Shown: piece after piece, positions 20,796 through 25,824 of the stretch
Layout of the letters: each line of letters opens with the position of its first letter
How positions within the stretch are numbered: the first letter of the stretch is position 1
Source of the DNA: a virus
Virus record (IMG/VR): IMGVR_UViG_3300022602_000270
Coordinates: 1-33,610 of that record
Length of the DNA: 33,610 bases
Strand: one strand, 5' to 3'
Notes under the pieces: model-generated
Seen by the model: only the letters and a program-made list of their open reading frames with translations
Databases searched by the model: none
Told to the model about the DNA's origin: nothing
Program-made: the position numbers and the translations under genes

Positions 20796-21014
20796 TCAGC
20801 CCGCTGTGTTGTCGGAAGCCAGCGGGCCATTTGCTTCTTGGGGGTCGGATTTCTTGAGCAACTTGGTTGCCCACTCACGACTAATCCCGAACTCGGCCGC
20901 AATACTGCTCGCGGTTTCTCCCGTCTCTGATCGCCTAAGCAATCGCCCCCGGATTTCCTGCTCTTGAGCTGGGTGCAGCTTTCGCCGTTGATCGGCCAAT
21001 GGTCGAATATCCAT
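20796..21014 (-). CDS. 72-aa helix-turn-helix protein, first gene of the leftward operon
   Basis: Residues about 35-55 (TASSIAAEFGISREWATKLLKK) are a clear HTH. The N-terminus is basic (RPLADQRRKLHPAQEQEI). There is no Shine-Dalgarno. A TATAAT box ends 9 bases before the ATG, so the message is nearly leaderless. Divergent from the repressor, it stands where Cro sits in lambda, but the HTH is of the transposase/resolvase (AxxFGIS) style. It is probably an early regulator. Confidence 0.75.
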   Translation of the reverse strand: MDIRPLADQRRKLHPAQEQEIRGRLLRRSETGETASSIAAEFGISREWATKLLKKSDPQEANGPLASDNTAG

Positions 21015-21022
21015 TGAATGGG

Positions 21023-21053
21023 ATTATATACCCATTCTTATTTACACTGTGAA
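21023..21053 (-). promoter_or_regulatory. Leftward lytic promoter (PL-type)
   Basis: Minus strand: -35 TTCACA (21053-21048), 17 bases, then TATATA (21030-21025), or 19 bases and TATAAT (21028-21023). The -35 is also a repressor-type hexamer, shared with the rightward promoter. It should drive the HTH gene and all genes to the left. Confidence 0.65.
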
Positions 21054-21068
21054 TAGTTTGTGAACAAA
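21048..21068. promoter_or_regulatory. Operator region left of the repressor gene
   Basis: TGTGAA occurs at 21048-21053 and 21059-21064, 11 bases apart; the second is in the near palindrome TTTGTGAACAAA (21057-21068). The same hexamers in the opposite orientation lie on the other side of the repressor. Binding would cover the -35 of the leftward promoter. Confidence 0.65.
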
Positions 21069-21091
21069 TGTGTTAATTTGTTGTAGCCAAC

Positions 21092-21763
21092 ATGATTTGC
21101 ATGGCTTCCGACGATCCACGAATACATTTGATAAATGCTCAGCTCACCCGGCTTGGGCTGTCAGCGCGTTGGCTGGCTGACAAGATCGGGGTAAGTAACG
21201 TCGCTTTGAGTAAGTGGTTGAACGGAGACAGTGTGCCCAGGAACAAGGACAGCTGGACACAAATGCTTTCAGTGCTGAAGGACTATGAAAAGGATATTTC
21301 GAATAACAAAACCGTCGCCTTGCAGAGAGTTGGACTCCGTAAAGTCATTGTCTATCCGAGTATCACCGCTGGCATGATGGGAAGTGTTGAAGCTGATTCC
21401 TTCACTTTAGACCTTAAAGACTGGGGTACAGACCGCGAGCGATGGGGGCGTACGATCAGCGGCCACTCAATGGAACCTGAACTGATCCCAGAAGATATTG
21501 TTATCTTTGAGGATCGACCGTATGAGCCTTATCACGTTGTCCACGCCTTCGACAACGGGGAAGATACGATCAAGGTTGTTCGCGGTCACGGCGATTCCGT
21601 GGAACTTGTACCGATCAATCCAGATTATTCGGTGCTTCCTGCTCGCAATGTGAACATCAAAGGGGTTGCTGTAGCTCGAATCCGCAAGGGGCCAGAGGGA
21701 ATTGTCACTACCACCGAATACCCTCACGGAATGCGGTTTAGAGTTCATTCACAAAAAGCGTAA
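21092..21763 (+). CDS. Prophage repressor, LexA/CI-type with S24 peptidase domain
   Basis: Residues 12-50 are an HTH (LTRLGLSARWLADKIGVSNVALSKWLNGDSV). Residues 85-215 are an S24 domain, with Ser126 in SGHSMEPEL, Lys161 in GEDTIKVVRG, and an Ala-Gly cleavage candidate at 93-94 (SITAGMMG). So RecA-triggered self-cleavage and induction by DNA damage are expected. A start at ATG 21092 or 21101 is possible; no Shine-Dalgarno is visible. It sits between mirrored operator arrays, and its 3' end contains a further hexamer (21748). No terminator separates it from the rightward promoter, so lysogenic transcripts may run into the early genes. Confidence 0.9.
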   Translation: MICMASDDPRIHLINAQLTRLGLSARWLADKIGVSNVALSKWLNGDSVPRNKDSWTQMLSVLKDYEKDISNNKTVALQRVGLRKVIVYPSITAGMMGSVEADSFTLDLKDWGTDRERWGRTISGHSMEPELIPEDIVIFEDRPYEPYHVVHAFDNGEDTIKVVRGHGDSVELVPINPDYSVLPARNVNIKGVAVARIRKGPEGIVTTTEYPHGMRFRVHSQKA

Positions 21764-21786
21764 AAACTATTCACAAATAGTTCACA
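21748..21786. promoter_or_regulatory. Operator region right of the repressor gene
   Basis: TTCACA occurs at 21748-21753 (in the repressor's last codons), 21770-21775 and 21781-21786, spaced by 22 and 11 bases. CTATTCACAAATAG (21768-21780 region) is palindromic around CACA. The arrangement mirrors the left operator. Confidence 0.65.
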
Positions 21787-21809
21787 AACAATTAACGACG
21801 TTGTATACT
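21781..21809 (+). promoter_or_regulatory. Rightward lytic promoter (PR-type) and leader hairpin
   Basis: -35 TTCACA (21781-21786), 17-base spacer, -10 TATACT (21804-21809). The -35 is the third hexamer of the right operator. The leader contains a hairpin (CCAAG-CCCG and CGGG-CGA-CTTGG, 21815-21841) that covers part of the TTGGAG ribosome binding site of the first gene. Confidence 0.7.
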
Positions 21810-21852
21810 GTTATCCAAGCCCGCCGACACGGGCGACTTGGAGTAACACAAG

Positions 21853-23569: not shown

Positions 23570-25168
23570 ATGAACGCATTAGCAAACAAACAAGAGAACC
23601 AGATCGCCACTTACGTCGAAGAGCCAGTAAAGCTCCTTGACCCTCGCGCCGAAGGCGGTGTCATCAGCTACGAATCCGGCCAGTCCATGAAGATGTGGGC
23701 GGCAACCATCAGTGCTGGCTATAAGGATGGAGACACCCCCAGAGTTGTCCGCGATGGCAAGATCCGATTGCATGAGGACATGGGTGAAGCCCCAGGAATC
23801 AAAGCCGCTCTCGCCGCAACCGAGCACAAGTCGATCACCATCACCATGCTTAGTGACAACATCGGTGACTGCCTCAAGCAACTCTTCTGTGCTTACGGCA
23901 CGGTCAAGATCTTTGGCGACCAAAACAGCTTGACCACCATGAAGCTGGAGAACGGCAAGCAAGTCCGAGAGACTATTCCATCCTCTGACCCAAGGTTCCA
24001 GTCGATGCTTAGTCTCTGCAAGCCCTGCACGTTCGTTCCGTTTGCCCTCGCCGAATGGGACGAGCAGAACAATCCCAGCATTACCTTCCCCGATGGGCTT
24101 GTGCCTTACCGACTCCGTTTTGGGAGTATTAACAGCGCCAAGGCTTTTGTCGACAGCTTGCAAGCGATCAAGCGCTTAACCGGTGGCCATCTCGTTGGTG
24201 TCCCCTTGGTTCTTAGCATCGCCTACAAGACCGTCATGACGCCCGACCTCAAGAGACAGAGCGTTCCCGTTTGGAATCCTGTGCTCAAGCATCCAAAAGG
24301 GATCCAGTTCGGCGCCCGCGACATCCAAAGAGTTCTTACCGCTGGAATCCGAGACGCACAGCAGATGGCGCTTCCTGCCTCGATTGCCCTCGATGAGCAA
24401 GTCATGGAAGCGGTCGTCGTCTCCGAAGAGAGAATCGCCGACGAGGAAACCGGCGAGGTCATCATGCAGGGAAGCCATCAGGATCTGAGGACAATCACAA
24501 CTGCCGAAGTTCCAGCCCGACGCCAAGAGGATTACTTCAAGGCGATGCAGGGAACTCCTTATGTCACTGATGCTCACCGTCCGCGGTTGATTCAGAGGAT
24601 GGCTGATGCCGCTGGCGTTGTCATTAGCAATCCCAGCCTCAGAGAACTTGCGGAGGTCGCAACTGCTAGCGAGTGGGAAATCTGCGCGGAAGTCATGTGC
24701 AAAGCCGCTGCCGCTTATCACGGGACCGAAGAAACCAAGCCACCGAAGGCAGTAGTTTCCGATGATCCCTACGCGCAACTGAACGAGGCTGCGAATACAC
24801 AGCAAGTGGTGGTTACCGAGCCAGTCCAGGAAGCTGTGATCACGGAGCCTGTGCGGAAGCAGAAGCCACCGGAGGCAGAGCCTGAGAAGCAAGCTCAGGA
24901 AGAAGCGAAGGCAGAGTTACCGAAGGTCAATAACTACCTTGCTCTTGATCGTCAACCGACAGCAGAGGAATCCAAAGCTGCCAGCGCATACACCAAGAAG
25001 CACTTTAACGCCGATCAGTTTATGCAGATCGGCAAAGCCGCTGGTGGCATCGATGTCCGCTTCGTAATCTTGGAAGCTCGAAGGCAAGGAATTACCGACT
25101 TCACCCAGACCATGCGACTGCTGGACGAGAACTTCGGCAAGGAAGAGCAAGCGGGGCTGGAACTCTAA
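23570..25168 (+). CDS. 532-aa early protein, possible recombination or ssDNA-related function
   Basis: Residues about 80-230 hold a compact domain ([58 protein letters not shown]). The run of RLRF-S, then GVPLxLxI, then a VPVW strand recalls the gp3/recombination directionality factor group, a remembered resemblance only. Residues about 395-450 are a Pro/Glu/Lys linker ([19 protein letters not shown]), and the C-terminus is helical ([20 protein letters not shown]). It lies just before the nuclease genes. The start has AAACCATGAA and no Shine-Dalgarno. Confidence 0.6.
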
Positions 25169-25824
25169 TGCGAATTTTTGTAGGGCCACGAAACACAGGC
25201 AAGAGAACCCATGGCATGACGGGAACTCCTACCTACAGAGTTTGGAGGGGCATTATTGCCCGATGTACAAACCCAAAGGTAAGAAGCTACCCAGACTATG
25301 GAGGGCGCGGGATTATTGTTTGCGATCGATGGCGATGGTCGTTTGATAACTTCCTTGCGGACATGGGAGAAAGGCCTGGTGACGGTTACGAAATAAACCG
25401 CCTTGACAACAATGGCCCATATGAACCAGGCAATTGCGAATGGGCAACTAGAAAGGAACAAGCCAATAACCGTCGAAGTAGTCGCGTTCTCGAATTTCGG
25501 GGAAGAAAACAAACTTTAGCTCAGTGGGCGGCAGAACTTGACCTTCCAAGGGCAACTATACAAGCTCGCTTAAAGTACGGATGGAACGTTGAGCGGGCAC
25601 TTTCAGAGCCAAATCTATCTCAGTCAAGCAGAAACGGTCTAAATAATCCTGCGGCAAAGCTTTCAACTCAGCAAATAGCCGAAATACGCCGGATTTGGCA
25701 AACAAACGCGCACCGAACGAGGTGGAAGCCTGGTGTAACCATGCGGGATATCGCAGGTCAGTTCGGCGTTTCACGGGGATACGTTTCTCAAGTTATCTCC
25801 GAAATCAAAAGGAAGGTGGCTTGA
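25168..25824 (+). CDS. HNH-like endonuclease with C-terminal HTH elements
   Basis: Residues 17-106 follow a familiar phage pattern: [53 protein letters not shown] and [19 protein letters not shown]. This looks like a compact HNH-type nuclease. Residues 108-148 ([20 protein letters not shown]) are a NUMOD-like HTH and residues 165-218 ([18 protein letters not shown] region) a second HTH. It is inserted between the 532-aa gene and sbcD, with TAATG and TGATG at its ends, and its codons look more AT-rich. A free-standing homing endonuclease is likely. Confidence 0.75.

Follow-up and report, generated by a model that had tools for sequence, protein, structure and literature searches.

A CI/LexA-type repressor gene between two compact arrays of shared half-sites in a virus contig: a probable lambda-like immunity region

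We analyzed a 33.6-kb virus contig (IMG/VR record IMGVR_UViG_3300022602_000270, positions 1 to 33,610; this whole stretch of DNA is called the window below) around a repressor gene whose two flanks carry mirrored copies of the hexamer TTCACA. The DNA comes from a temperate bacteriophage. Leftward genes encode a small helix-turn-helix (HTH) protein, a replication initiator, a DnaB-like helicase, an endolysin, a terminase, a portal protein and head-protein-like products, and rightward genes encode an HNH protein and an SbcC-like protein, with an integrase as the last product. Compared with the annotated records of phages P22 (NC_002371) and lambda (NC_001416), the predicted gene order is a mirror image of the lambda/P22 type, and the repressor gene lies between putative left and right operators (OL and OR). 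The coordinates of the features are shown in Table 1.

The repressor combines the XRE DNA-binding domain and the self-cleaving S24 domain by which a CI-type repressor is recognized. Its self-cleavage residues are present (an Ala93-Gly94 site and the catalytic Ser126 and Lys161), and the best Protein Data Bank (PDB) matches of its structure model, which is of low confidence, were lambda CI and LexA. The recognition helix reads GVSNVALSKW in this protein and GVSNVAISQW in P22 C2, so that GVSNVA-x-S-x-W is common to both.

A preliminary description of this DNA had claimed that each flank of the repressor gene carries two TTCACA hexamers at a distance of 11 base pairs (bp), in mirrored orientation, and that a third copy lies 22 bp farther in, within the 3' end of the gene; all five hexamers could be located. 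Start-to-start spacings are 11 bp on the left and 22 and then 11 bp on the right, and both pairs point outward from the repressor gene; an extra copy inside the gene at 21649 on the minus strand fits no array. TTCACA is also the -35 element of the best -35/-10 pair in both predicted outward early-operon promoters, PL and PR, that flank the repressor gene, as the same description had proposed, so that repressor binding at these boxes would close down both promoters. The claimed distance of 17 bp to the -10 box stood on the right (TATACT), whereas on the left it could be obtained only by choosing TATATA over the better, perfect TATAAT, which lies at 19 bp. The repressor's own promoter in the left gap appeared weak, with a best spacing-corrected score of 8/12.

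TTCACA by itself shows no enrichment in the window (15 observed versus 20.4 expected). However, the extended unit TTCACAAA is enriched, with four of its five copies in the immunity locus and 1.2 expected in the whole window, and the two flanks are the only places in the window where two TTCACA copies occur at 11-bp spacing. Dinucleotide shuffling of the two intergenic stretches (21015-21091 and 21764-21852) never placed TTCACA twice in both (0 of 20000), and any hexamer occurred twice in both in 0.5% of shuffles, or in 0.07% when equal spacing was demanded. The shuffle rate of 0.07%, the enrichment of TTCACAAA and the lack of any other 11-bp pair in the window indicate that the mirrored pairs are more than chance.

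We also carried out an unbiased motif test, in which all 7-mers with two W (A or T) positions were scored for copies on both flanks. One motif was found, AWTWGTT (AACWAWT on the opposite strand), with three copies per flank against 0.15 and 0.08 expected by chance, and six of the 14 AACWAWT copies of the window sit in the two flanks. None of 2000 shuffles reached three plus three copies for any comparable motif; it should be noted that this search was made after the sequence had been seen, and that the shuffles allow any motif of the same kind, not every kind of motif. As a control, the same test on the annotated operator regions returned WAWTTAA in P22 and WWCACCG in lambda, each with three copies per side and each being half of a real operator. 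The half-sites alternate in orientation, as AACTATT-CACA-AATAGTT-CACA-AACAATT on the right and as AACAAAT-TAACAC-ATTTGTT-CACA-AACTATT on the minus strand of the left flank. Since they follow one another every 11-13 bp, each array is only 29-31 bp long and neighboring dyads share an arm. The predicted sites are packed about twice as tightly as is usual for a lambda-like layout.

The bases around the hexamers point in the same direction. When the TTCACAAA cores were held fixed and five bases on each side were compared, 12 of 15 pairs were symmetric, which was equaled in 6 of 100,000 shuffles (P = 6e-5). The three cores have 5, 4 and 3 symmetric pairs, whereas exact direct repetition of the unit predicts two of five (worked by hand). 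Both flanks contain a predicted dyad-symmetric site, namely a shared 18-bp dyad AWTWGTT-N4-AACWAWT, one per flank, plus one overlapping dyad. The arms of OL and OR on the plus strand are identical at 13 of 14 positions, their centers differ (TGTG versus CACA), and no other copy of the 18-bp dyad was found in the window with two mismatches allowed. Together, the symmetric core flanks and the alternating half-sites speak against the proposal that the operators are direct repeats instead of lambda-type palindromes, so that the earlier interpretation is supported only in part. The hexamers had been described as the operators themselves; they are better seen as junctions within the half-site pattern, and TTCACA most likely consists of the end of an operator arm (TT) and the operator center (CACA), doubling as the predicted -35 box.

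Table 1. Predicted features at the repressor locus; positions are those of the window
Feature	Position	Strand	Remarks
First PL-operon gene, 72-aa (amino acid) helix-turn-helix protein	20796..21014	-	HTH_23-like, not XRE; ATG 2-4 nucleotides from predicted transcription start
PL -10 region TATATAAT	21023..21030	-	TATATA (21030-21025) at 17 bp or perfect TATAAT (21028-21023) at 19 bp
Inner left TTCACA	21048..21053	-	Predicted PL -35
Proposed OL, AATAGTT-TGTG-AACAAAT	21052..21069	+	18-bp dyad, 5/7 arm pairs; outer TTCACA (minus strand) in center
Outer left TTCACA	21059..21064	-	One turn upstream of PL -35
Third left half-site (ATTTGTT on +)	21076..21082	-	Perfect 7-bp inverted repeat AACAAAT-N6-ATTTGTT with 21063-21069
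Repressor, XRE helix-turn-helix + Peptidase_S24 (LexA/CI-type), 223 aa	21092..21763	+	Pfam HTH_3, Peptidase_S24, PHROG 4
Third TTCACA(AA)	21748..21753	+	Last codons of repressor open reading frame; 11-bp phase with right pair, role doubtful
Overlapping right dyad, AACTATT-CACA-AATAGTT	21765..21782	+	7/7 arm pairs; half-site 21776-21782 common with OR
Outer right TTCACA	21770..21775	+	One turn upstream of PR -35
Proposed OR, AATAGTT-CACA-AACAATT	21776..21793	+	18-bp dyad, 6/7 arm pairs; center in PR -35 box
Inner right TTCACA	21781..21786	+	Predicted PR -35
PR -10, TATACT	21804..21809	+	17 bp from -35
First PR-operon gene, 72 aa	21853..22071	+	No family; GGAG upstream

On the basis of these observations, we consider it rather probable that the two flanks serve as OL and OR for a CI/LexA-type repressor, within an immunity region of the lambda type, and that they hold compact, overlapping 18-bp dyads whose centers double as -35 sequence. 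A repressor dimer would bind each dyad much as P22 C2 binds its operators. On the right-hand side, the dimer would sit directly on the PR -35 box, where the operator center CACA and the TT of the arm make up TTCACA; on the left, it would lie one turn upstream, overlapping the edge of the PL -35 box, where it might also affect the repressor's own promoter. Bound repressor would block RNA polymerase at both outward promoters, and self-cleavage at Ala93-Gly94, stimulated by RecA, would lift the repression. PL would then drive the small HTH gene and the replication, lysis and head genes leftward, and PR the accessory genes and the integrase rightward. The four central bases are not conserved among the P22 operators, and an operator center may likewise be free to become CACA toward each promoter, making TTCACA a -35 box. 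The repetition of TTCACA would then follow from dyad arms combined with a center adapted as -35 sequence. Either a single dimer suffices on each side or the choice of register matters; there is some small chance that the alternating half-sites with shared arms allow register choice or protomer-by-protomer loading in place of lambda's three separate cooperative operators.

The proposed switch resembles that of P22 in that an XRE and S24 repressor lies between two operator clusters with replication genes on one side, and in that the P22 operators recovered by a dyad-family search are 18 bp long with two 7-bp arms and a 4-bp center. It resembles that of lambda in that the repressor gene lies between operator clusters at which two outward early promoters are repressed, in the three plus three half-sites of the blind test, and in having the integrase on one side and replication on the other. 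On the other hand, P22 has three separate operators per side, in contrast to one or two overlapping dyads here, and the 17-bp operators of lambda are about 20-24 bp apart, whereas the arrays here measure 29-31 bp. An XRE-family Cro, present in lambda, would be expected to come first in the replication-side operon; here there is no such gene, and the first PL gene, unlike that of P22, does not encode an XRE Cro. With the dyad-family search, P22 and lambda each gave five operators (scores of 29.1 and 28.9, respectively), whereas the window gave only two members (12.8); upstream of most of the distant relatives tested it found two to four spaced operators, although several of these relatives were near-duplicates of each other. 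A P22-type TTAA operator was also sought by eye; AATTAAC was seen in both flanks, in neither case with a partner arm, and this candidate was discarded.

Relatives of the repressor were sought in several collections. A tblastn search against phages gave no close relative (best about 27-31% identity), viral contigs and 399 Pseudomonadota genomes contained none, and GTDB contigs yielded no close relative and one cellular LexA-like regulator. An alignment-based search gave 80 distant repressors, of which those examined have other operators. Near-identical phage was represented only by terminase-bearing fragments (L009 and L010), which do not include the immunity region, and an exact 23-mer of the immunity region had no match in viral contigs. 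Exact double-unit TTCACA matches in viral contigs were not repressor loci, and the pattern TTCACA-N5-TTCACA-N17-TATA was rejected as a widespread phage module, being found in 34 stretches of the viral contigs against 43 for a 12-bp control. Arrays of this general kind do occur elsewhere: an unrelated viral contig has about 10 CTTCACA/CTTCATA units at about 11-bp spacing (L097:11065-11240), and shorter TTCACA-type arrays precede a TATAAT in two viral contigs (L006:115-200 and L127:230-270).

Several points weigh against the lambda-like interpretation. No close repressor relative was present in the collections searched to show conservation or covariation of helix and operator, and the mean predicted local distance difference test (pLDDT) score of the repressor model is 58, with low confidence outside the DNA-binding domain. 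Neither flank holds two to three non-overlapping operators about 20-25 bp apart, and the three operators about 24 bp apart of P22, lambda and several relatives are absent. Despite the similar recognition helix, the arms differ from those of P22 at the inner three bases (ANTTAAG versus AWTWGTT here), so that the binding specificity is not the same. Moreover, the OL dyad matches at only five of seven arm pairs, and the dyads at 21765-21782 and 21776-21793 have one half-site in common and therefore cannot both be occupied by a dimer.

Direct repeats have precedents in phage switches, namely P2 C (PMC4752584) and 186 Apl (PMC7498355), and the repressor might instead read the TTCACA units, including the copy at 21748, as direct repeats spaced by one helical turn, with a single protomer on each. 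The five outward copies, the 11-bp phase that the right-hand copies keep over 33 bp and the rarity of same-spacing hexamer pairs on both sides (0.07% of shuffles) would suit such binding, and P2 C, a dimeric phage repressor, acts at its operators O1 and O2 on a pair of 8-bp direct repeats with a spacing of 22 bp (PMC4752584). We nevertheless regard it as unlikely, since the core flanks are more dyad-symmetric than direct repetition predicts, and since lambda, P22 and the distant relatives with a detectable motif family all show dyads. The copy at 21748, which has no dyad arm beyond TT..AA, and the inner left copy, which also lacks dyad arms, may be a chance occurrence and a plain -35 box, respectively. 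The likeness to P2 C extends to a phage switch with repeats near a promoter; however, P2 C has 99 aa and no S24 domain and its repeats flank the -10 box (PMC4752584), whereas here the spacing is 11 bp, the repeats lie upstream of the -10 box and the repressor has 223 aa and an S24 domain.

It is more doubtful still that the hexamers are sites of the 72-aa HTH protein, acting as a Cox/Apl/Xis-like protein on 6-bp direct repeats and toning down both early promoters. In phage 186, the first early gene encodes Apl, which recognizes 6-bp direct repeats 10-11 bp apart, with seven sites between the early promoters and five at attP, and binds efficiently only where three operators adjoin (PMC7498355). 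The small HTH gene that opens the PL operon and the repeat spacing of about 11 bp are similar here, but there are two arrays of two, with only two good units per side, and no other TTCACA array was found in the window, although the attachment site was not located and the record is perhaps incomplete. Furthermore, the 72-aa protein resembles HTH_23 and not known excisionases, its structure had no significant match in the PDB, and the domain resembling a recombination directionality factor belongs to another gene (23570-25168).

That two AT-rich promoter regions, both using TTCACA as -35, resemble each other by chance seems very improbable: promoter-like sites occur at the chance rate (1 versus 1.1 expected) and the motifs were examined after the event, but shuffles open to any motif gave 0.0007 for the hexamer pairs and <0.0005 for the half-sites. 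Finally, control of the phage promoters by a host OmpR/PhoB-type response regulator bound to the hexamers is hardly credible, because, although OmpR-type regulators read 11-bp direct repeats, as in the 7-bp repeats with 4-bp spacers of Mycobacterium tuberculosis PhoP (PMC4832192), and longer 11-bp TTCACA arrays exist in unrelated viral contigs, no host factor is needed to explain the mirrored placement about the repressor gene and TTCACA pairs with a TATA 17 bp on are not commoner at 11-bp than at 12-bp spacing in viral contigs.

Some features of the early transcripts and neighboring genes were also observed. The predicted PL transcription start is only 2-4 nucleotides from the ATG (21014) of the 72-aa HTH gene, and no Shine-Dalgarno sequence was found before this gene or the repressor start (21012-21030 and 21080-21101); the short distance and the lack of such a sequence suggest that the PL mRNA may be almost leaderless. 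A perfect inverted repeat, GAATGGG-N8-CCCATTC (21016-21037), is centered on the PL -10 box and ends just short of the ATG of that HTH gene, with a weaker copy (three mismatches) at 21729-21750; the repeat at 21016-21037 is a possible candidate for the operator of the 72-aa protein. The PR leader could fold into a hairpin at 21814-21842 (-14.9 kcal/mol, z -2.9) that includes some of the GGAG bases upstream of the first PR-operon gene. Farther right, 23570-25168 encodes a 532-aa protein with a Gp3-like recombination directionality factor domain (PF18897) and no PHROG match, and 25168-25824 encodes an HNH endonuclease fused to a sigma-70 region 4-like HTH.

Our results suggest that alternating half-sites should be tested for before repeated hexamers are called direct-repeat operators. 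If the lambda-like interpretation is true, this locus would provide a very small test case, with about 30 bp per side, of a lambda-class switch with shared half-sites, in which the operator center doubles as a -35 box in a phage without close database relatives.
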